Shown here one piece after another: positions 27,592-61,751 of a DNA stretch of 64,000 nt (its first letter is position 1; each line of letters opens with the position of its first letter). Below the pieces are notes generated by a model. That model ran no database searches and had not been told where the DNA came from. It saw only the letters and a program-made list of their open reading frames with translations. The stretch is from assembly GCA_963576475.1 (NCBI GenBank), contig OY754981.1, positions 248,001 to 312,000 on the forward strand, read 5' to 3'. Made by a program: the position numbers and the translations under genes. This DNA comes from Molanna angustata (lineage: Eukaryota; Arthropoda; Insecta; Trichoptera; Molannidae).

Positions 27592-27805
27592 TCGGCCTTC
27601 GTGGCTCAGTTGGTAAGGTATCTGGCTGCTGATTCAAAGGTCCCGTGTTCGATTCTCGGTGGAGGCACAGTTTTCAATTGTGTTTTCAGTCTGAATCTGT
27701 GAGACAATTAATATAGTCTCCAGAAAGTCTCCAGAATGTGGCAACTTATTGGTTATTGGGTGCGTGTTAGTTGACCGAGAAGTAATTTAAAATAAAATAA
27801 AAATA
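27592..27805 (+). repeat. SINE-A copy, tRNA-derived
   Basis: Head GGCCTTCGTGGCTCAGTTGG, box B-like GTGTTCGATTCTCGG, the body blocks seen at 968, and an AAAATAAAATAAAAATA tail. GTCTCCAGAA is duplicated in the body (27716-27738). Confidence 0.88.
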
Positions 27806-27944: not shown

Positions 27945-28195
27945 TATTTAAAATGTGCCACAAAGTTATAGCAACGTTTAAAGATATTGTAACTTGATTG
28001 AGTTTCCTCAGTATATTGTAGTCTTTTTTTCTCATTCTATTGTTTTTTTAGTTTAGGTTAAGTTTCAATTATTTTATTAACTGTATATTCTTTATTCATT
28101 TTTTTATGATATTAATTATGTTTGGAGCTAATAATGTCTTTACCCGAATGTCGTGTTTGTCTTTGCAATCATGATGTTATATTGTACTTCATGAT

Positions 28196-28272
28196 ATTTA
28201 TTTATTTATATAACACTTTTTTGTACATACATAAAATTACATAGTACAAATGGCGGACTTATTGCCTGGAGG
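28196..28272. repeat. Edge of dispersed repeat bordering the 90-bp array
   Basis: TTTATATAACACTTTTTTG and AAATGGCGGACTTATTGCC, then a small hairpin ATTGCC-TGGA-GGCAAT. From memory this resembles an interspersed repeat end common in lepidopteran genomes. The 90-bp array is an expansion inside that repeat. Confidence 0.5.
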
Positions 28273-30345
28273 CAATTTCTTCCAGTCAACCATCTGAGAT
28301 TAAAAGTACATAACATAGTTTCGGCATATACATAATAACACAACCAGTATAAGACAACAAAACAATTTCTTCCAGTCAACCATCTGAGATTAAAAGTACA
28401 TAACATAGTTTCGGCATATACATAATAACACAACCAGTATAAGACAACAAAACAATTTCTTCCAGTCAACCATCTGAGATTAAAAGTACATAACATAGTT
28501 TCGGCATATACATTATAACACAACCAGTATAAGACAACAAAACAATTTCTTCCAGTCAACCATCTGAGATTAAAAGTACATAACATAGTTTCGGCATATA
28601 CATAATAACACAACCAGTATAAGACAACAAAACAATTTCTTCCAGTCAACCATCTGAGATTAAAAGTACATAACATAGTTTCGGCATATACATAATAACA
28701 CAACCAGTATAAGACAACAAAACAATTTCTTCCAGTCAACCATCTGAGATTAAAAGTACATAACATAGTTTCGGCATATACATTATAACACAACCAGTAT
28801 AAGACAACAAAACAATTTCTTCCAGTCAACCATCTGAGATTAAAAGTACATAACATAGTTTCGGCATATACATAATAACACAACCAGTATAAGACAACAA
28901 AACAATTTCTTCCAGTCAACCATCTGAGATTAAAAGTACATAACATAGTTTCGGCATATACATTATAACACAACCAGTATAAGACAACAAAACAATTTCT
29001 TCCAGTCAACCATCTGAGATTAAAAGTACATTACATAGTTTCGGCATATACATAATAACACAACCAGTATAAGACAACAAAACAATTTCTTCCAGTCAAC
29101 CATCTGAGATTAAAAGTACATAACATAGTTTCGGCATATACATTATAACACAACCAGTATAAGACAACAAAACAATTTCTTCCAGTCAACCATCTGAGAT
29201 TAAAAGTACATAACATAGTTTCGGCATATACATAATAACACAACCAGTATAAGACAACAAAACAATTTCTTCCAGTCAACCATCTGAGATTAAAAGTACA
29301 TAACATAGTTTCGGCATATACATTATAACACAACCAGTATAAGACAACAAAACAATTTCTTCCAGTCAACCATCTGAGATTAAAAGTACATAACATAGTT
29401 TCGGCATATACATAATAACACAACCAGTATAAGACAACAAAACAATTTCTTCCAGTCAACCATCTGAGATTAAAAGTACATAACATAGTTTCGGCATATA
29501 CATAATAACACAACCAGTATAAGACAACAAAACAATTTCTTCCAGTCAACCATCTGAGATTAAAAGTACATAACATAGTTTCGGCATATACATTATAACA
29601 CAACCAGTATAAGACAACAAAACAATTTCTTCCAGTCAACCATCTGAGATTAAAAGTACATAACATAGTTTCGGCATATACATAATAACACAACCAGTAT
29701 AAGACAACAAAACAATTTCTTCCAGTCAACCATCTGAGATTAAAAGTACATAACATAGTTTCGGCATATACATAATAACACAACCAGTATAAGACAACAA
29801 AACAATTTCTTCCAGTCAACCATCTGAGATTAAAAGTACATAACATAGTTTCGGCATATACATTATAACACAACCAGTATAAGACAACAAAACAATTTCT
29901 TCCAGTCAACCATCTGAGATTAAAAGTACATAACATAGTTTCGGCATATACATAATAACACAACCAGTATAAGACAACAAAACAATTTCTTCCAGTCAAC
30001 CATCTGAGATTAAAAGTACATAACATAGTTTCGGCATATACATAATAACACAACCAGTATAAGACAACAAAACAATTTCTTCCAGTCAACCATCTGAGAT
30101 TAAAAGTACATAACATAGTTTCGGCATATACATAATAACACAACCAGTATAAGACAACAAAACAATTTCTTCCAGTCAACCATCTGAGATTAAAAGTACA
30201 TAACATAGTTTCGGCATATACATAATAACACAACCAGTATAAGACAACAAAACAATTTCTTCCAGTCAACCATCTGAGATTAAAAGTACATAACATAGTT
30301 TCGGCATATACATAATAACACAACCAGTATAAGACAACAAAACAA
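28273..30345. repeat. 90-bp tandem array, 23 copies
   Basis: The unit contains AATTTCTTCCAGTCAACCAT, CTGAGATTAAAAGTACATAA and CATAGTTTCGGCATATACA, and repeats exactly every 90 bp. Apart from one A/T site (CATAATAAC or CATTATAAC) and one single change at about 29032, the copies look identical. Because 90 is a multiple of three, one minus-strand frame stays open as a 30-residue repeat (for example NCFVVLYWLCYYVYAETMLC). The frame is broken only by the 29032 substitution, giving frames at 28206-29009 and 29031-30323. I read it as satellite DNA rather than a gene. Confidence 0.95.
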
Positions 30346-31129
30346 AAAGTGAGAAATTACACAAATTCAGAAAGGAGAGGAAAATCAGAAAGGGAAGGGA
30401 GAGGATGAGGAGCGATCAAAAGGGATGGAAAGTGAAATTGGGATATATGTTCGTTATGGAATTGATAGGAAGAGTGAGCATTTAAGACGAGATTTGAAAA
30501 TTGGAAGTTAATATTAAATTATTTCTAATATTAAATGCTAAATTGTTCCACAGCCGGGCAGCATGTGGCCCTTTCTAGATATATTTGTACATATTTGATG
30601 AATATTACTTTGCTAAATAATAATATTGCACGTTTGGTTTTAGAATTTAGTTGATCTCTCGTTGTGTTGCGTCGATACAAAATCATTACTTATTCGTGAA
30701 TCGTTAATAACATTTAATATTTTTTTGTGAATTTCACTTTCAATGTTTTAATTATGCTTCCATTTGTTTCTACTTCACTGAATATAATTATTTGGTATTT
30801 TCTCTTAAACTGAGACTAAATTAAACAAATTCCCACAGCGCTGTGTCATGGTCATGATCTTTGGTAAAAATGTTATGTTTTCGGATTTGGTTACTTACAT
30901 ATTACACAATTTTCGTGTCTATTATTATGTCGACTACATTTGATCGTCTGTAATCTTAGTCTAGATTTCAAAATAACAGCATCCATTGTCAAACTACTGA
31001 AGTTTACAGTTTCAGAAGAAACCCAAGATCTTTATGTCTTGGAAATTTAGATCAATGTAGTCACAAATGGAACGACTCTTATCATTGATCAATTTTAGCG
31101 ATCTACGTTCACTTAGCTCTCTTCTCTCT
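30346..31129. other. Stretch beyond the array, repeat-like, no gene
   Basis: A purine-rich piece (AGGAGAGGAAAATCAG, GGGAAGGGAGAGGATGAGG) at 30370-30430 and GTTCCACAGCCGGGCAGCATG at about 30545 look like the continuation of the dispersed repeat. No coding capacity is seen. Confidence 0.45.
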
Positions 31130-32375: not shown

Positions 32376-33151
<776 letters not shown>

Positions 33152-33246
33152 ACTAGAAAGGTTTTCACGGGTATTTGAAAATATGAAATTATTATTATCT
33201 TTGGGGTTATCCCGCGTCAAAATCAGATCCTTGGAAGGATCTTTCG

Positions 33247-33297
33247 TCAACCGACGTTTCGCCTGGATCACACCAGGCATCTTCAGGGCCTTGTTGA
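33247..33297 (-). ncRNA. Hammerhead ribozyme motif, PLE1 downstream pseudo-LTR
   Basis: Minus strand: helix I pairs UCAA and CC with GG and UUGA. The core is CUGAAGA, helix II is GCCUGG/CCAGGC with a 6-nt loop, then GAA, the palindrome ACGU at helix III, and C17. Predicted cleavage follows C17 at 33253. With no loop on helix III it should act as a dimer. Confidence 0.78.
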
Positions 33298-33380
33298 TAG
33301 ATTCTCGCTTCGTGTGTCAGTGCAAGCACGTCCGTTCGAGCCGAGAACCTAGCACCAAGTGAAGATTGGAAAGTTAAAGT

Positions 33381-36065
33381 TTAAACTGTTGGGGTAGATG
33401 GGTTTTCCCCGCTTTTGTTCGCCTTAATGGCTTTTGACTGGCTTCTGGTGATTCGCCTCACGCTTAATGATGTATCTATTGTATTAATTTTATTTGTTTG
33501 GCGTTTAACATTTAATGGGTTTACTGTAATGGGATTTTTATTGCTGTCAATTTCTGAGGTATTTAATGAATGTTTTATAATGTTATTTTTATTTTTATTG
33601 TCGATTCTATTTTTATGTAAGATATTTTTCCAGGCCAGCGGGAGACGTACACCATCGTCTCGATTATTCACGACATTCTTCCTTTTGTAAATTTCGATTG
33701 CCTCTCTATAAATTCTTACTGTTTCTGTGTTAATACTTGCAACTACGCGTGCATTATCGAAATCGATTTGATGTCCTTCGTTCAGAGTATGTTGGACTAG
33801 TGAAGACGTTAATTTTTTATTGTTTGAATCCACTCTATGCTCCGCGACCCTGGCTGATATTTTTCTGTTACTTTTTCCCACGTATGTCTTGTCGCATGAT
33901 TTACATGGTATTTCGTATATGCCATGAGACTCTAGAGGGATTTTGTCTTTTACATTTCGCAGAAGGGTTGATATTTTATTTTCTGTTCTGAAGACTGTTC
34001 TAATATTATGTTGATTTAGAAGGCGACTGATTTTATCTGTGGTTCCTTTTATGTATGGTAAAAAAGCTGTAGCTAACGGTTTTTCAGAAATAGTTTTATC
34101 ATTTTTTATGACGTTTTTATTAGTTTGACGTTTGACTGCTTTATTTATAACAAAATTGGAGAAGCCATTACATTGCAGGGTTTTTTTGAGGTTATTTAAT
34201 TCATTTTGTTGGTGGTCGGAGTCGGTTATTTTTATAGCTCTGGAAACTAATGTATTAGCTACCGATGCAATTTGTGCCGGGTGATGGTTAGAGGATGCAT
34301 GTAGATATCTATCTGTATGTGTGGCTTTCCGGTAAACCGTATGACCAAGGCTACCGTCATCCTTCTTAATAACTAGGACGTCTAAAAATGGTATTTGATT
34401 ATTATTTTCTAATTCCATTGTAAATTTTATATCGCTGTGGAGCCCGTTTAAATAAATTAGAAATTTGTTTAGTTCCTCCAATCCGTGGGGCCATATTATG
34501 AACGTATCATCCACGTATCTAATCCAGAGTTTCGGTTTCAAATGTGATTTTTCTAAGGCGTCTATTTCAAATTTTGTCATAAAAAGATTTGCAACCGGCG
34601 GTGAAAGAGGCGAACCCATTGGTGCTCCTTTAATCTGTTTGTATATTTTATCGTCATAAATGAAAAATGTATTATTTAAGCAGTGTTCTATCAATTCAGT
34701 TATGTCTTTTGATGGTTCACAAATTTCTTTTACTGCGGAAAGTGCCTCATCGGTAGGTATGTTGGTAAACAGTGACACAATATCAAAACTAACAAGAATA
34801 TCTGTTTTCTCTAACTTTTGGTCTTCTATTATTTTAACGAAGTGTTCCGAGTTTTTAACGTAAGAGTTTGCTAGTTCTACATCCGGTTGCAAATATTTCG
34901 ATAGGTATTTTGAAAGCGATTGGAGGGGCGATCCTACTGAACTCACTATGGGCCTAAGTGGAACATTGTCTTTATGGATTTTTGGTAAACCATACAATTT
35001 GGGGAAGCGGGATGATTTTTCGCGCGGTATCAATGATTTCTTTAAGTCTTCGTTTAGTTTTGATGCTATTATTTTAGATTTTGTTGTTTTTTCTAGGTAT
35101 GTAATTGGATTTTTGTTATGAAGTTTGTATGCCGGATCATTTAATATATTAGTCATTTTAGAGTGATATTCTTCGCTTTTCATAATCACTGTGGCATTGC
35201 CTTTATCCGCTGGAAGTATAATTATATCTGTATTTGAACGTAATTCTTTGAGAGCTCGGGCTTCGTTTCTTGTAATATTACTTTTAGGTGGAAGTGACTT
35301 TCTAAGAATGTGGCATGTTTCTTGGCGAATAGTTTCAGCCATATTTTCGTTTAATTTATGTAACGCGGATTCTATTCCTGTAATGATCTCTTCATTAGGT
35401 ATTTTGGGTGGTACTACGCCGAAATTAAATCCTTTAGACAAAACCGAAGTCATGTCGTCATCTAGTTGGAAATCAGTTAAATTATGAATCAGTTTACTCG
35501 AATCTAGTGTCGGTTGGGGTTTCTGTATTTTATTTTGAAAACGATTGAATTTATTAATTTGCCGGTCGGTATTTATTTGCGTATTATTTTGAATTCGGAG
35601 CACAATGACATTATCTAACATGTCCCATAACAATGGGTGTAAAGTATTAGCAAGTTTTAAATGAATTTTAAATATTTCTTTACCTATATAATCTAGTTTA
35701 AAACGAATATTTTTAATTTCATCTCTGATTAACGCAAAACTAGTATTATTAAGGATTTGACTCACCGAATGTCTGCTTACTTGTCGGCTTACTCGAAAAC
35801 TAACAGGCACTACTTTTTTATCACGACACCGACTGAGAAACGCGAGATCACACAGAAGCTTTGCATGTTTACACTTTAACTTTTCAAACTTCTTTGTATC
35901 ACGAAAAAATTCCTCCCCGTAGAGGTTAATAATGTTACTAGAAAGGTTTTCACGGGTATTTGAAAATATGAAATTATTATTATCTTTGGGGTTATCCCGC
36001 GTCAAAATCAGATCCTTGGAAGGATCTTTCGTCAACCGACGTTTCGCCTGGATCACACCAGGCAT
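33381..36065 (-). CDS. PLE1 polyprotein: reverse transcriptase plus GIY-YIG endonuclease, 894 aa
   Basis: Single uninterrupted ORF of a Penelope-like retroelement; the enzyme copies element RNA into DNA at a nicked target. Residues 60-160 form the family's N-terminal region (LLCDLAFLSRCRDKKVVP). The RT spans about 270-620: FPKLYGLPKIHK at 354-365, motif A SFDIVSLF with Asp428, motif B GAPMGSPLSPP at 480-490, and motif C YVDD at 517-520. The GIY-YIG nuclease spans about 710-800: GIY 715-717, the CxxC pair Cys721/Cys724 typical of the family, YVG 728-730, Arg739 and probable catalytic Glu788. The tail is basic and Asn-rich. All catalytic residues are present and there are no frameshifts. The ATG at 36065 is the only Met before residue 149, but it lies inside the hammerhead motif, so the true start or use of this ATG is uncertain. 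Confidence 0.95.
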   Translation of the reverse strand: MPGVIQAKRRLTKDPSKDLILTRDNPKDNNNFIFSNTRENLSSNIINLYGEEFFRDTKKFEKLKCKHAKLLCDLAFLSRCRDKKVVPVSFRVSRQVSRHSVSQILNNTSFALIRDEIKNIRFKLDYIGKEIFKIHLKLANTLHPLLWDMLDNVIVLRIQNNTQINTDRQINKFNRFQNKIQKPQPTLDSSKLIHNLTDFQLDDDMTSVLSKGFNFGVVPPKIPNEEIITGIESALHKLNENMAETIRQETCHILRKSLPPKSNITRNEARALKELRSNTDIIILPADKGNATVIMKSEEYHSKMTNILNDPAYKLHNKNPITYLEKTTKSKIIASKLNEDLKKSLIPREKSSRFPKLYGLPKIHKDNVPLRPIVSSVGSPLQSLSKYLSKYLQPDVELANSYVKNSEHFVKIIEDQKLEKTDILVSFDIVSLFTNIPTDEALSAVKEICEPSKDITELIEHCLNNTFFIYDDKIYKQIKGAPMGSPLSPPVANLFMTKFEIDALEKSHLKPKLWIRYVDDTFIIWPHGLEELNKFLIYLNGLHSDIKFTMELENNNQIPFLDVLVIKKDDGSLGHTVYRKATHTDRYLHASSNHHPAQIASVANTLVSRAIKITDSDHQQNELNNLKKTLQCNGFSNFVINKAVKRQTNKNVIKNDKTISEKPLATAFLPYIKGTTDKISRLLNQHNIRTVFRTENKISTLLRNVKDKIPLESHGIYEIPCKSCDKTYVGKSNRKISARVAEHRVDSNNKKLTSSLVQHTLNEGHQIDFDNARVVASINTETVRIYREAIEIYKRKNVVNNRDDGVRLPLAWKNILHKNRIDNKNKNNIIKHSLNTSEIDSNKNPITVNPLNVKRQTNKINTIDTSLSVRRITRSQSKAIKANKSGENPSTPTV

Positions 36066-36165
36066 CTTCAGGGCCTTGTTGATAGATTCTCGCTTCGTGT
36101 GTCAGTGCAAGCACGTCCGTTCGAGCCGAGAACCTAGCACCAAGTGAAGATTGGAAAGTTAAAGT
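35934..36165 (-). promoter_or_regulatory. PLE1 internal pseudo-LTR
   Basis: It is repeated as 33149-33380 and, in part, inverted at 37495-37680 and in the 48.5-49.1 kb mini-copy. It lies between the end of the upstream truncated ORF and the full ORF, overlapping the first codons of the latter. In Penelope-like elements this region is the place for promoter and 5' leader. Here it contains a hammerhead motif; I see no clear promoter consensus. Confidence 0.7.
36032..36082 (-). ncRNA. Hammerhead ribozyme motif overlapping the PLE1 start codon
   Basis: Same sequence as 33247-33297. The AUG of the 894-codon ORF follows the core directly (CUGAAG-AUG) and the predicted cut after C17 (36038) is 28 nt downstream of its A, within codon 10. 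Confidence 0.78.
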
Positions 36166-37496
36166 TTAAACTGTTGGGGTAGATGGGTTTTCCCCGCTTT
36201 TGTTCGCCTTAATGGCTTTTGACTGGCTTCTGGTGATTCGCCTCACGCTTAATGATGTATCTATTGTATTAATTTTATTTGTTTGGCGTTTAACATTTAA
36301 TGGGTTTACTGTAATGGGATTTTTATTGCTGTCAATTTCTGAGGTATTTAATGAATGTTTTATAATGTTATTTTTATTTTTATTGTCGATTCTATTTTTA
36401 TGTAAGATATTTTTCCAGGCCAGCGGGAGACGTACACCATCGTCTCGATTATTCACGACATTCTTCCTTTTGTAAATTTCGATTGCCTCTCTATAAATTC
36501 TTACTGTTTCTGTGTTAATACTTGCAACTACGCGTGCATTATCGAAATCGATTTGATGTCCTTCGTTCAGAGTATGTTGGACTAGTGAAGACGTTAATTT
36601 TTTATTGTTTGAATCCACTCTATGCTCCGCGACCCTGGCTGATATTTTTCTGTTACTTTTTCCCACGTATGTCTTGTCGCATGATTTACATGGTATTTCG
36701 TATATGCCATGAGACTCTAGAGGGATTTTGTCTTTTACATTTCGCAGAAGGGTTGATATTTTATTTTCTGTTCTGAAGACTGTTCTAATATTATGTTGAT
36801 TTAGAAGGCGACTGATTTTATCTGTGGTTCCTTTTATGTATGGTAAAAAAGCTGTAGCTAACGGTTTTTCAGAAATAGTTTTATCATTTTTTATGACGTT
36901 TTTATTAGTTTGACGTTTGACTGCTTTATTTATAACAAAATTGGAGAAGCCATTACATTGCAGGGTTTTTTTGAGGTTATTTAATTCATTTTGTTGGTGG
37001 TCGGAGTCGGTTATTTTTATAGCTCTGGAAACTAATGTATTAGCTACCGATGCAATTTGTGCCGGGTGATGGTTAGAGGATGCATGTAGATATCTATCTG
37101 TATGTGTGGCTTTCCGGTAAACCGTATGACCAAGGCTACCGTCATCCTTCTTAATAACTAGGACGTCTAAAAATGGTATTTGATTATTATTTTCTAATTC
37201 CATTGTAAATTTTATATCGCTGTGGAGCCCGTTTAAATAAATTAGAAATTTGTTTAGTTCCTCCAATCCGTGGGGCCATATTATGAACGTATCATCCACG
37301 TATCTAATCCAGAGTTTCGGTTTCAAATGTGATTTTTCTAAGGCGTCTATTTCAAATTTTGTCATAAAAAGATTTGCAACCGGCGGTGAAAGAGGCGAAC
37401 CCATTGGTGCTCCTTTAATCTGTTTGTATATTTTATCGTCATAAATGAAAAATGTATTATTTAAGCAGTGTTCTATCAATTCAGTTATGTCTTTCC
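36166..37496 (-). pseudogene. PLE1 partial copy: C-terminal half of RT plus GIY-YIG
   Basis: The frame is open for about 440 codons and identical to residues from about 453 of the full ORF to its end. It keeps motif B, YVDD and the whole endonuclease, but lacks motif A with the first catalytic Asp, so it cannot be an active RT. Its 5' end is joined at 37494 to an inverted pseudo-LTR fragment through CTTTCCAATC. Position upstream of the full unit is the usual tandem arrangement. The endonuclease alone could still be made if translation started internally; no good start codon is seen. Confidence 0.9.
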
Positions 37497-37566
37497 AATC
37501 TTCACTTGGTGCTAGGTTCTCGGCTCGAACGGACGTGCTTGCACTGACACACGAAGCGAGAATCTA

Positions 37567-37617
37567 TCAACAAGGCCCTGAAGATGCCTGGTGTGATCCA
37601 GGCGAAACGTCGGTTGA
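37567..37617 (+). ncRNA. Hammerhead ribozyme motif in the inverted PLE1 end
   Basis: Plus-strand copy of the PLE1 motif: CUGAAGA core, GCCUGG/CCAGGC helix II, ACGU and C17 at 37611. It is opposite in orientation to the two motifs at 36032 and 33247. Confidence 0.75.
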
Positions 37618-37674
37618 CGAAAGATCCTTCCAAGGATCTGATTTTGACGCGGGATAACCCCAAAGATAATAATA

Positions 37675-37853
<179 letters not shown>

Positions 37854-37979
37854 ATTGAATTGACATTTACCGTGTAGGTTTGTATGTTGTGGATGTATTT
37901 TCATTCGCCAAGTAAAATAAAACCTATTTTTTATGTATTTAAATTTAAAGATATAACTTTGTATTAACCACGTTTTTTG

Positions 37980-38038
37980 GTTGAAACGATGCGACCGATT
38001 TCGGAACTAACCGTTCCCTCATCAGGCTAACTTTCAAC
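37980..38038 (-). ncRNA. Hammerhead ribozyme motif, PLE2 left arm
   Basis: Minus strand: helix I pairs GUUGAAA with UUUCAAC and GC with GC across internal loops. The core is CUGAUGA, helix II is GGAAC/GUUCC, then GAA. Helix III strand AUCGGU (one G-U pair in a dimer) is followed by C17. The right arm has ACCGGU instead. Confidence 0.82.
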
Positions 38039-38172
38039 TGAAACAGAATGTGACGACGTGCTTACAAGAAATCTATGGGGGCGGAGGTAGAGGTAGGGTG
38101 GGGGTACTTAGGGTTGGGTCTTGTGCAGGGTGGGTCCGATTAGCTGAAGGATTAGAAGTAAAAGGAAACATA

Positions 38173-38598
38173 TTATAATGGACTGAAAGATAAATTTAAC
38201 TGATTGTTTATTATGTTCTGTTTTGAATTAATACACTTTTTAATTTCTAGCGACTCTAAATTATCAAGACGGAGACCTACTTTGTTGACGTGTAAAATTT
38301 TTGTTCCCGATTGCATATTAAATTGATGATCATTAAGTACTAAGTGTTCTGCGAATTCCGAAAAATTATCATTGTTTATACATCTTATATGTTCTTTTAC
38401 TCTAGTCTCAAATTTCCGTCCTGTTTTTCCTATGTAGACTGCAGAGCAGTCTCCACATGTCAGTTGGTATACGCCGGAGTTTTCCATTTTATTATCTTTA
38501 TCTTTGGAATTCATTAAACTTTTTCCAATATTATTGTCAGTGTAAAATGCCGGTCTTATGTCTTTTGGTAAGAAATTTGAGACTAATAGAAATATCAA
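38173..38598 (-). pseudogene. PLE2 GIY-YIG endonuclease domain, truncated ORF
   Basis: A 141-codon frame. LPKDIRPAFYTDNNIGK is the linker found before the nuclease in this group. It is followed by GVYQLTCGDCSAVYIGKTGR (GIY-YIG with CxxC), FETRVKEH, FAEHL and LDNLESLEIKKCINS, ending SFSPL. The RT half is missing, so this is the 3' end of a 5'-truncated element. The frame is intact. It is the same subfamily as PLE4 at 61.4 kb and different from PLE1 (CGDC against CKSC). Confidence 0.88.
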
Positions 38599-38783
38599 AA
38601 CAGAACATAATAAACAATCAGTTAAATTTATCTTTCAGTTCATTATTAAATATATTTCCTTTTACTTCTAATCATTGACCAATCGGACCCACCCTGCACA
38701 AGACCCAACCCTAAGTACCCCCACCCTACCTCTACCTCCGCCCCCATAGATTTCTTGTAACCACGTCGTCACATTCTGTTTCA

Positions 38784-38842
38784 GTTGAAAGTTAGCCTGA
38801 TGAGGGAACGGTTAGTTCCGAAACCGGTCGCATCGTTTCAAC
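38784..38842 (+). ncRNA. Hammerhead ribozyme motif, PLE2 right arm
   Basis: Plus strand: GUUGAAA...UUUCAAC and GC/GC helix I, CUGAUGA, GGAAC/GUUCC helix II, GAA, palindromic ACCGGU, C17 at 38829. All consensus core positions are present. Confidence 0.88.
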
Positions 38843-38881
38843 CAAAAAACGTGGTTAATACAAAGTTATATCTTTAAATTT

Positions 38882-39689
38882 AATTTGTTAAATATGAACC
38901 ACAAAGTTAACATTCAAACATTTGAAAATATTTTTTATGTGACTAAATTTTTAAACAAAATACATATGTAGATATTTTTTAATGAATCTTGATACTAGTA
39001 ATGTGAATAATAAATTAAATTTAAAATTCAGAAGTATCTATTGATATACAAATTTGACAGTTAGCTCTGTATGCTCCAATAATTGACTACACTCATTGTT
39101 AGTTAACATAACGTAAGCGTTAAAAGTACAGTTTTTTTCATATACTATATAACGTCTATTTGCACGCATGTTATAATTAATACGAGTATCTACTACTATA
39201 ATATGCATTTTTTTTTCTTTCACAATTTAACGCACAACTGCCCGTCAGAACTGATTTTCAAATTATGCAAGTGTCGCATTGAATTAAAAAGCTTTATTGT
39301 GAATCCTACACCAATATTTAACAGAAATATGACAATTTTATTTATAACTAAATTTATTATTAAAAAAAAAATATAACAATAGGCGCAAAATTAAACAATA
39401 GTTATTTATTTTGTTACCATATATTATTATTAGGTATACAATTCAACAAGTTCAGACTTATGTATACTGAACTCTCCTTTACATAATTTTGTCTACATCT
39501 TTAAATACCTAAAATCAATATGGAATATATTCATTTAAGTTTGGGATGTACATATATTATGACACAATCGTTTCAAATTTTTATAATTTTTAAATGCATT
39601 TTTGTGGAGCCAATTTCTATTGTAAACATTCTTGTTGCAAAAATAAAAAAAAAAACTATGAATAAGGGGAACATTAATAATTGTAAAAA
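38882..39689. other. AT-rich stretch without recognised gene
   Basis: Nothing recognisable on either strand. Confidence 0.5.
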
Positions 39690-44644: not shown

Positions 44645-44850
44645 TTTCGGGCAACTAACAGGTACTATGTCAAATATTAATTTAACACGCACCCAATAAC
44701 AAGTTGCCACATTCTGGAGACTTACGATATTAATCGTCTCACAGATCCAGACTGAAAACACAATTAAAAACTGTGTCTCCACCGGGAATCGAACCCGGGA
44801 CCTTTGGATCAGTAGTCAGATACCCAACCAACTGAGCCACGAAGGCCGAC
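44645..44850 (-). repeat. SINE-A copy, well conserved
   Basis: Minus strand from 44850: GGCCTTCGTGGCTCAGTTGG, CCCGGGTTCGATTCCCGG and the body to GTTAGTTGCCCGAAAA. It is the best-preserved full copy and useful as a reference. Confidence 0.9.
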
Positions 44851-47841: not shown

Positions 47842-48424
47842 CTATGTGTGTTGTGTTGATTGGTGGGGTGTAGGTGGGGTATTCGTTATTGTGATTGGTT
47901 GGAGAGAAGAATGAGGTACGGATAACGGGAAAATTGTCAATAATGGCGAAGAATTGGGGAATTTGGTGTTATTGATAAGTGGTTTACCTAAATTGATGTT
48001 TCTGTGAATTTCTATTGTTTCTAAACTATTCATCAAATGACCTTTGTGTGTGACTTGGTGTAAGAGTTTAACTGTGTGGCTATGGAATGAGTGGTTGGTA
48101 TCTATTATATGATTTGCGAATTCCGAGAAGTTGCTATTCATAATACATCGTCTATGTTCTTTAATCCTCGTATTAATGTTTCTAGAGGTTTGGCCAATGT
48201 ACAATGAATCGCAGTCTCCACATGATATTTCATAAATTCCGCTTTTTTCTTTAAAATCTATTTTTGTTTTAGAATTGCAAAGTAATTTACCGAGGTTATT
48301 ATTTGTATAAAAGGCTGGTTTAATTGTTGTAGGCATATGTTTCGTTATTTTTATGGATAATTTATCTATGTACAGAATTTTTCTCCATTTTTGATTTTCA
48401 TTATTGTTTATTGGTGGATAAATA
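47842..48424 (-). pseudogene. PLE3 GIY-YIG endonuclease end
   Basis: The frame is open from about 48424 (after a stop) to 47842. WRKILYIDKLSIKITKH is followed by MPTTIKPAFYTNNNLGK (family linker) and GIYEISCGDCDSLYIGQTSR with the GIY-YIG and CxxC signature. Then come NTRIKEHRRC, FANHIIDTNHSF and LETIEIHRNIN. The tail is Pro/Ser/Thr-rich (PTPHQSTQHT). A start at 48336 is possible, but the protein would lack RT; it is the 3' remnant of a larger ORF. Confidence 0.85.

Positions 48425-48511: not shown

Positions 48512-48542
<31 letters not shown>
48512..48542. repeat. (AT)n run next to PLE1 mini-copy
   Basis: A GTATGTATAT-(AT)n run that joins the PLE1 terminus GTTACTAGAAAGG at 48543. Confidence 0.9.
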
Positions 48543-48640
48543 GTTACTAGAAAGGTTTTCACGGGTATTTGAAAATATGAAATTATTATTATCTTTGGGG
48601 TTATCCCGCGTCAAAATCAGATCCTTGGAAGGATCTTTCG

Positions 48641-48691
48641 TCAACCGACGTTTCGCCTGGATCACACCAGGCATCTTCAGGGCCTTGTTGA
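48641..48691 (-). ncRNA. Hammerhead ribozyme motif, mini-copy direct part
   Basis: Identical in all core and pairing positions to the PLE1 motif at 36032; C17 at 48647. Confidence 0.75.
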
Positions 48692-48993
48692 TAGATTCTC
48701 GCTTCGTGTGTCAGTGCAAGCACGTCCGTTCGAGCCGAGAACCTAGCACCAAGTGAAGATTGGAAAGTTAAAGTTTAAACTGTTGGGGTAGATGGGTTTT
48801 CCCCGCTTTTGTTCGCCTTAATGGCTTTAGACTGGCTTCTGGTGATTCGCCTCACGCTTAATGATGTATCTATTGTATTAATTTTATTTGTTTGGCGTTT
48901 AACATTTAATGGGTTTGCTGTAATGGGATTTTTATTGCTGTCAATTTCTGAGATATTTATGAGGCTTGCACTGACACACGAAGCGAGAATCTA

Positions 48994-49044
48994 TCAACAA
49001 GGCCCTGAAGATGCCTGGTGTGATCCAGGCGAAACGTCGGTTGA
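48994..49044 (+). ncRNA. Hammerhead ribozyme motif, mini-copy inverted part
   Basis: Plus-strand copy of the PLE1 motif, facing the one at 48641 at a distance of about 300 bp. Confidence 0.75.
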
Positions 49045-49101
49045 CGAAAGATCCTTCCAAGGATCTGATTTTGACGCGGGATAACCCCAAAGATAATAAT
49101 A

Positions 49102-50554
<1,453 letters not shown>

Positions 50555-50705
50555 TATTTTCTTGTTAAACAAGTACTTATACATTCCTTAAATTAAGCAT
50601 AAATGTTTGTGCTATAGGTGAACGAAAACGGTCGAGGCAAGATTCGAACTCGCGACCACTGGAATACTAGCCCAGCACGCTAACCGTTGTGCTATCGAAC
50701 CATAT
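50555..50705 (-). repeat. SINE-B copy, tRNA-derived
   Basis: Minus strand: GGTTCGATAGCACAACGG, TGGGCTAGTATTCCAGTGG and the box B-like CGAGTTCGAATCTTG. The body (CACCTATAGCACAAACATTT, ACTTGTTTAACAAG) ends in a T/A tail. It is the best-preserved SINE-B copy. Confidence 0.85.
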
Positions 50706-60735: not shown

Positions 60736-61344
60736 ATGAACAATATTTTATTTCTTTAGATACGTATGCTCGATTCCATGATGATCATGATCACTGTTCA
60801 TTCCATGATGATCACTGATTTTCATGGTTGTGAACTGTTTACTAAGAAAAATTTTCTATTTTCTTCAGAAGTTCTTTATATTATGCGATGATATATTTCA
60901 TAACTTGTTATTGTGGTTTTCTCACACAGTTTTTGTTACTGGGACATTTCCCGTTACCTGCAGTACCTACATAATAATAACGAGCTTGGTCCGATCCGAG
61001 TTCTCATGGGCAGTGGATATTTTGGTGAATAATACGACTAAATTGGGGCCCCCATAATCAAATGGCAGACCTCTGCCCAACACACACACAGGGTTGCCAA
61101 CTTACCAACTATTATTTTATAAGTATCGTAACGGTACCGTCATCAATTCAATTTTTTCAACCATCTTAGTAAAACGATGACTCGATCTGCCAAGAAGTTT
61201 TCTGGTAAAATTATCATAAGTTTTATTTAGATAGAAAAAAAAATAAGAACATAGCGTATACATGATGAAACCAACATACTTTGAAGCATTTTTTAAAATA
61301 TCAAATATCGTATTTTTAACTTTGTGGTACATTTTAACAAAAAT
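60736..61344. other. Stretch without recognised gene
   Basis: Nothing recognisable. Imperfect ATGATCATGATCA repeats lie at 60776-60820. Confidence 0.45.
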
Positions 61345-61382
61345 GAACTAAATTTTTTAACTTTGTTTACACCACGTGAGAA

Positions 61383-61437
61383 TTGAATTAGCGACCGGTT
61401 TCGGAACTAACCGTTACCTCCACAGGCAGAATTTCAA
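61383..61437 (-). ncRNA. Decayed hammerhead motif, PLE4 inverted end
   Basis: Minus strand: UUGAA/UUCAA and GC/GC helix I are kept, as are GAA and ACCGGU-C. The core is CUGUGGA (A6 lost) and helix II has a mismatch. Probably inactive. Confidence 0.5.
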
Positions 61438-61442
61438 AAATT

Positions 61443-61658
61443 TTACACATTAATAAAGTAGGTTTACGCTTAGATAATTTAGAGTCACTTGAAATAAAAA
61501 AAGCAATTAATTCAAACAGAAATATAATAAATAATCAAGTAAAATTTACTTACAGCCCGCTTTTAAACATGTTTCCCCTTTCCATCAATAGTACCAATCA
61601 AAGCCATTCTACACAAGACCCGCCCCTAATGACCTCCCACCAATATCCAAATACATAG
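61443..61658 (+). pseudogene. PLE4 ORF, last 71 codons
   Basis: The frame reads INKVGLRLDNLESLEIKKAI, then NSNRNIINNQVKF and SPLLNMFPLS, to a stop at 61656-61658. It closely matches the end of the PLE2 GIY-YIG ORF (VGLRLDNLESLEIKKCINS). The catalytic GIY-YIG part itself is missing, cut off by the inverted junction at 61440. Confidence 0.82.
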
Positions 61659-61696
61659 TTTTCTTTTAAGCACACAGTCACATTCTGCGTTTAGTT

Positions 61697-61751
61697 GAAA
61701 TTCTGCCTGAGGAGGGAACGGTTAGTTCCGAAACCGGTCGCTAATTCAATT
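61697..61751 (+). ncRNA. Hammerhead ribozyme motif, PLE4 3' end
   Basis: UUGAA/UUCAA and GC/GC helix I, core CUGAGGA (N7 is G, allowed), GGAAC/GUUCC helix II, GAA, palindromic ACCGGU, C17 at 61741. Confidence 0.82.

Follow-up and report, generated by a model that had tools for sequence, protein, structure and literature searches.

The hammerhead ribozymes of Penelope-like elements (PLEs) are described in reviews, including the relevant passages of PMC7761336, as minimal motifs that lack helix III and probably cut as dimers. In PAc, a Poseidon element of Anolis carolinensis, the ORF starts at stem II of the hammerhead and the cut lies 26 bp past the start codon, according to the section of PMC11167929 on this element. 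A start codon inside a hammerhead is thus not new. The same section reports that the PAc hammerhead requires protein for cutting in vitro, that mutations of its core leave insertion in vitro unaffected, and that no RNA-seq reads start or end at the presumed cut, which may mean that cleavage seldom happens in vivo. It further places the RT start 111–118 bp into the ORF and shows that the first 172 nt of the ORF are required, and that a template beginning at +20 retains activity. A translation switch is not discussed in that section. Among the matches listed, no other paper dealt with start codon and hammerhead together in a PLE (the hammerhead papers of 2014 and 2017, cited below, lie outside the scope of this statement), and the relevant passages of PMC10085705, PMC6515669, PMC6431247 and PMC11722881 hold nothing on the subject. 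The part of the review PMC11722881 that treats PLE pLTRs notes that they hold spliceosomal introns.

Results

The minus strand of the window (the whole 64-kb stretch of DNA that was analysed) carries a tandem PLE, PLE1, with a unit of 2785 nt. According to the ORF list and Pfam, its 894-aa ORF is unbroken (33381–36065, minus strand; ATG at 36065–36063). Upstream lies a 5′-truncated tandem copy (36166–37490, minus strand). A 100-nt leader without ATG (36066–36165, minus strand) leads from the ORF stop of that copy to the AUG, with 12 codons between an in-frame TGA and the AUG. The two arms of a direct repeat, 33147–34709 and 35932–37494, are 1563 nt long and show 0 differences. PLE1 is probably a young element.

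Pfam detected RVT_1 at residues 365–536 with 51.8 bits, above the cut-off, and a GIY-YIG endonuclease-like region at residues 714–751 with 17.1 bits, below the cut-off of 22.6. Residues G715, Y717, C721, C724, Y728 and G730 are invariant in an alignment of 20 sequences, comprising the window protein and 19 hand-picked from the 120 listed homologs. The protein search scored 7995 candidates and yielded 1493 homologs at E ≤ 0.001; PF00078, PF28514 and PF26215 were found in most of the best 120 of these 1493. The closest of the best 120, P0001, is 75% identical to the 894-aa protein. The contig encoding P0001 measures 2786 nt, one base more than the PLE1 unit, and many further homolog contigs are about 2.4–2.9 kb long; such contigs of about unit length possibly reflect assembly of tandem DNA at unit length, or circular molecules.

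PLE1 has its RT domain within a single ORF and homologs of PLE type, and it shows tandem pLTRs, an adjoining inverted pLTR, an optional tail and an AT-rich target, all as in PLEs. It resembles the Penelope/Poseidon type. The comparison with relatives is one of protein sequences only. With the PLE sequence as query, none of 14 candidates in viral contigs was a DNA relative. Two weak partial matches (37–38%) to bacterial MAGs, among 42 candidates in genome contigs, were not used.

The start codon of PLE1 lies inside a predicted minimal type I hammerhead core (36038–36071, minus strand). Residues C3 to C17 were assigned to positions 36071–36038 on the basis of the hammerhead numbering and core consensus. 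On this assignment, C3 to A9 (CUGAAGA) correspond to 36071–36065 of the minus strand. Stem II pairs GCCUGG (36063–36058) with CCAGGC (36051–36046), giving 6 bp and the 6-nt loop UGUGAU. G12-A13-A14 are at 36045–36043, A15.1-C15.2-G16.2-U16.1 at 36042–36039, and C17 is at 36038. The conserved core CUGANGA / GAAA / UH and a paired stem II are present, and one additional U separates A9 from stem II. De la Peña and Flores reportedly described, in 2001, a viroid hammerhead core that carries an extra nucleotide. C3 and G8 are also named as hammerhead core residues in the PAc section of PMC11167929.

The AUG occupies 36063–36065 (minus strand). The original prediction placed it correctly at 36065 and had it directly follow the ribozyme core; it overlaps the core instead, its A being A9, its U (36064) the unpaired extra base and its G the first base of stem II. 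The cut is predicted after ORF nt 28, the first base of codon 10 (CGG), and the earlier placement of cleavage after 36038, within codon 10, matches the core mapping to the base. As in PAc, the AUG thus sits at the border of A9 and stem II, and the start codon precedes the cut by about 26 nt.

The 135 nt upstream of the AUG contain no ATG; once past the stop codon of the upstream copy, AUG 36065 is therefore the earliest AUG. Its context has core residue A6 at −3 and C at +4. The −3 position matters for start-codon context, where a purine counts, and the hammerhead itself provides this purine. In the ORF, Met is found at residues 1, 149 and 205 onward, in line with the prediction that none other precedes residue 149. 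A cut at 36038 would remove the sole AUG of the first 148 codons; only uncut (or rejoined) RNA can therefore use this AUG, and the claim that cleaved linear RNA cannot use the annotated start holds. The conserved N-terminal region had been placed from about residue 60, and its block in fact begins near residue 38 (RENL at 38, LYGE at 48). Near-cognate codons between the cut and this block include TTG 11, ACG 12, CTG 19, TTG 21 and ACG 22, among others; a non-AUG start on cleaved RNA is possible but unsupported. For the alternative in which a spliced leader provides the start, the introns of PLE pLTRs noted in PMC11722881 are relevant.

The pattern of core, AUG, fixed gap and GAAACGUC occurs five times in the window with 0 mismatches, compared with 0 occurrences in 100 dinucleotide shuffles. 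It is more than chance, and the five occurrences are non-independent copies of one family.

Three results count against a strong ribozyme. The Rfam hammerhead models gave no match at gathering score in the whole window and none at E ≤ 10 in 33100–37900. Stem III is limited to AC/GU without a loop, so that a stable stem III was not found, and its ACGU is palindromic. When 51, 61 and 93 nt were folded, stem II formed and the cut site was paired elsewhere; in the 61- and 93-nt folds it was taken up by a CGUC/GACG hairpin. The stability of these folds was ordinary (z of −1.6, −1.7 and −1.5, equal or greater stability being reached by 14, 10 and 16 of 200 shuffles, for 51, 61 and 93 nt, respectively).

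PLE1-family cDNAs are present at two insertions. Both lie in (TA)n and consist of paired back-to-back cDNAs with their 3′ ends facing outward. In insertion 1, cDNA 1 (33147–37490, minus strand) comprises 4344 nt, or 1.56 units, with a unit overlap identical at 1563/1563 positions. It contains two intact hammerheads, the second copy being at 33253–33286 (minus strand) in the downstream pLTR. Its partner, cDNA 2, is an inverted pLTR fragment (37491–37683, plus strand) with a hammerhead at 37578–37611 and a 3′ end at ORF nt 100 beside (TA)n. In insertion 2, cDNA 1 consists of the ORF end and a pLTR (48541–48962, minus strand; hammerhead at 48647–48680), with its 3′ end at ORF nt 134 beside (TA)n. 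The inverted pLTR fragment that forms cDNA 2 (48964–49110, plus strand; hammerhead at 49005–49038) has its 3′ end at ORF nt 100, again beside (TA)n. Insertion 2 differs from insertion 1 by 3 mismatches and 1 gap over 423 nt.

At both insertions, the ORF match before (TA)n is 134 nt long in the minus-strand cDNA and 100 nt long in the plus-strand cDNA, the last few bases of the 3′ ends being ambiguous because of the AT sequence. The same pair of tails, one long and one short and flanked on either side by (TA)n, is seen at 33147 and 37683 and at 48541 and 49110. This fits priming on both DNA strands, which is reported for PAc. The corresponding template region, ORF nt 100–134 (35932–35966, minus strand), would hold the RT start sites, or PLE ‘tail’, and the gap of 34 nt between the two 3′ ends fits the published PLE tail of 30–40 bp, and the presence of two such ends fits the two RT start sites of PAc. 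The start region would thus pack three signals into 134 nt: the AUG (1–3), the predicted cut (after 28) and the RT starts (100 and 134).

None of the eight ends of the four PLE1-family cDNAs at the two insertions in the 64-kb window falls at the predicted cut. The 3′ ends at ORF nt 100 and 134 lie 72 and 106 nt past it, the inner ends of the plus-strand cDNAs lie 121 and 75 nt upstream of it, and those of the minus-strand cDNAs are inside the ORF, around residues 450 and 834. All five hammerheads crossed by the four cDNAs are intact and contiguous, one cDNA crossing two. Since the cDNAs run contiguously through them, the templates there were uncut, or cut and rejoined. The two insertions therefore suggest that new copies come from RNA that is uncut, or rejoined, at the predicted cut. 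None of the four cDNAs extends to the next hammerhead upstream, which leaves RNA cut solely at its 5′ hammerhead as a possible template.

The window contains further repeats. A second PLE-type family (37930–38892 and 61316–61741) differs in its hammerhead core and lacks an AUG at A9. Its core, CTGATGAGGGAACGGTTAGTTCCGAAA..., occurs at +38797 and −38025; a related core with CTGAGGA at +61707 is 75–76% similar to the cores at 38025 and 38797, and stem III is longer (ACC/GGU) at +38797 and +61707. Near 37930–38892, similarity appears to stop about 54–63 nt past the predicted cut of this family on both sides. Between the cores at 38025 and 38797 lies a GIY-YIG-type remnant (38200–38562; 33% to the PLE1 ORF), and because of this PLE endonuclease remnant, an interpretation of the CTGATGAGGG cores as retrozymes was dropped. 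Another PLE-type GIY-YIG remnant (47842–48366) adjoins insertion 2; it scored 25.3 bits in Pfam, above the cut-off, and is 34% like the PLE1 ORF. A 90-nt tandem satellite array of about 23 registers at 28183–30462 keeps long minus-strand frames open, and its likeness is 71–93% at the edges and 99–100% elsewhere. Four matches to the tRNA model (1129–1201, 27595–27667, 44774–44846 and 50629–50701, with 30.3, 30.5, 37.1 and 38.7 bits; cut-off 29) are possibly SINE heads.

We scanned 123 proteins, the window's and 122 fetched ones, comparing Met in the first 80 residues with later Met. A hammerhead-compatible signature was defined as ETS, [SPTA]KR or RNV at most 16 residues after Met; the 80-residue limit was chosen post hoc, and a 60-residue limit misses P0030. 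The signature accompanied 13 of 197 early Met and, among Met further on, 8 of 1102. When a minimum of 4 possible stem II pairs was also required, 8 early Met and 1 later Met were left (Fisher p 2e-6, which is not a true probability because the scanned sequences are related). The passing proteins are the window's, P0001, P0011, P0017 (Anolis carolinensis), P0028, P0030 (Henosepilachna), P0032 and P0121; independent cases are fewer than eight, since P0121 was recovered with P0032 as the query and P0001 is close to the window protein. Two N-terminal protein searches had given 3 matches and 1 match, of which two (P0121 and P0122) were new.

In all eight, the insert is 18 nt (KR frame) or 19 nt (ETS frame), which puts the cut after ORF nt 28 or 29. 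Peptide shuffles gave 0.014 to 0.108 for the individual passing proteins, values that are weak singly, and 0.264 for the later Met, in P0003. The residues preceding Met, where shown, agree with CTG-ANG-ATG, being L-K-M in P0001 and P0030 and M-M in P0028. In P0001, the replacements of Pro by Ser and of Ala by Thr, if they arose by single-base changes, would amount to a compensating stem II pair, as judged at the protein level. Together with the spacing of 18–19 nt in two frames, this pair of changes would point to selection acting on the RNA.

In 19 proteins, at least 25 residues precede a true LYGE or LHGE block, and 8 of these proteins, including the window's, pass. Among the other 11, P0025 has signature and spacing with a stem mismatch, and 10 fail. 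By uninspected pattern match, 23 proteins begin at most 25 residues from the block, and 65 of the 123 have no block in their first 150 residues. For 7 of the 122 homologous proteins, then, a Met appears to fit an equally sized hammerhead, with two reading frames represented; judged from protein sequences, the start-in-hammerhead layout is recurrent and not universal. The hammerhead and AUG pattern was also found at 53 loci in viral contigs. Of these, 19 allow 4 stem II pairs, with 17 of the 19 being versions of one sequence, and the loci were taken as chance.

Discussion

With the order AUG, cut, RT start, cleavage would strip the AUG from the downstream copy and the RT start from the upstream copy. 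This order makes a choice between protein and processed element RNA less credible and speaks for a brake or circularisation. On balance, we lean toward a brake, with uncut multimeric RNA as message and template. The ribozyme would be weak by default because it has almost no stem III, leaving most RNA uncut, and this uncut RNA, multimeric at least sometimes, would serve both purposes. Cutting at a hammerhead would then cost the downstream copy its AUG and the upstream copy its RT start. For an RNA of the form pLTR-ORF-pLTR, cleavage at the 5′ hammerhead would ruin the message, and cleavage at the 3′ hammerhead would ruin the template. Cleavage would act as a brake except where the ends are joined again by a ligase, as in a circle, restoring AUG and RT start. 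The trigger could possibly be binding of the element's protein to the start region; such protein-triggered feedback is plausible given that the PAc hammerhead cuts only with protein.

We infer the brake from the geometry, which, like the copies and the cDNA ends, can be read directly from the DNA. The unbroken ORF, the contiguity of 4/4 cDNAs, the ends common to two insertions, the layout in 7/122 proteins and the PAc results in vitro make this reading somewhat the more probable one. Against it stand the lack of RNA-seq ends at the PAc cut, the restriction of the layout to 8/19 N-terminally long proteins, the fact that 5′-cut RNA is still a possible template (the PAc template beginning at +20 stayed active), and the identity of the tandem units, which a circular template would fit as well. 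We hold a more specific version as tentative and rather doubtful: the protein would bind at the first ORF nucleotides and thereby gate a self-destructive cut between AUG and RT start, so that AUG, core and RT start would co-evolve as one control unit in some PLEs. The cut would stop one copy from being translated and its neighbour from serving as template, with ligation, for example into a circle, as the sole way back.

We regard circularisation as unlikely. Dimeric or protein-assisted hammerheads would cut out units, tRNA ligase would close them, and the circle, in which AUG, hammerhead and RT start are whole again, would be message and/or rolling template; tandem insertions would arise from more than one trip round it. 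The 4344-nt cDNA of 1.56 units, with 0 differences in its 1563-nt overlap vs 3 mismatches and 1 gap in 423 nt between insertions, is compatible with such a template, so the identity of the tandem units would also fit a circle. The units of a young genomic array would, however, be identical too. Stem III, with its palindromic ACGU, would lend itself to a double hammerhead, and for type I hammerhead retrozymes, published passages on ligation assays point to tRNA ligases; the PAc ribozyme mutants nevertheless insert in vitro (PAc section of PMC11167929).

We give still less credit to a mere overlap, in which the hammerhead is a relic or has its function elsewhere, for example in terminating read-through RNA from upstream. 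The AUG would be there because CUGANGA followed by UG gives the first AUG, with A at −3. The weakness of the predicted monomer and the absence of an Rfam match agree with this, as do the failure of 11/19 N-terminally long proteins in the layout test and the PAc RNA-seq data without ends at the cut, as given in the PAc section of PMC11167929. Against it are the spacing held at 18–19 nt in two reading frames and the Pro-to-Ser and Ala-to-Thr pair in P0001, which would preserve the pairing of stem II if these are single-base changes; both point to the RNA as a target of selection.

The original prediction of a switch, with uncut RNA making protein and cut RNA being processed element RNA for transposition, now seems very improbable: its translation arm stands, since the cut parts AUG from ORF, and an RNA cut at the 5′ hammerhead and uncut at the next would be untranslatable from AUG 36065 and keep its RT start, but its processed-RNA arm conflicts with five crossed hammerheads that are intact, with 0/8 cDNA ends at the cut and with the normal in vitro insertion of PAc core mutants (PAc section of PMC11167929).

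The order AUG, cut, RT start predicts that cleavage lowers protein output and does not feed insertion. Each cDNA that crosses a hammerhead records the state of its template there, so insertion scars allow a large-scale test.

Comparison with known systems

Where LINE-type elements carry a 5′ ribozyme, its cut lies upstream of the ORF and is not known to fall within it. Like the PLE1 hammerhead, HDV-like and other ribozymes of this kind lie at the 5′ end, and the passages of PMC7761336 on them propose roles in RNA processing and in promoting translation start; they differ in belonging to other ribozyme classes. In Pen2 of Adineta vaga, the pLTR takes in the first 12 aa of the ORF and adjoins an inverted pLTR, and a 31-bp tail on one inverted pLTR compares with the end spacing of 34 nt in PLE1; the relevant passages of PMC3846280 on Pen2 make no mention of a hammerhead. 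The minimal type I hammerheads of PLE pLTRs, as reviews describe them after Cervera and De la Peña (2014) and Lünse et al. (2017), share with PLE1 the location in the pLTR, the absence or near absence of stem III, the tandem arrangement and the expected action as dimers.

PAc differs from PLE1 in its RT start, 111–118 bp into the ORF vs cDNA ends at nt 100 and 134, and the Anolis carolinensis protein P0017, which is maybe not PAc itself, fits a hammerhead in the ETS frame vs the KR frame in PLE1. As far as the section of PMC11167929 on PAc describes it, the two elements are otherwise alike: C3 and G8 precede the start codon, the cut falls in the first codons (26 bp vs 25 here), two RT start sites lie within the ORF, targets are AT-rich, and the pLTRs stand in tandem.
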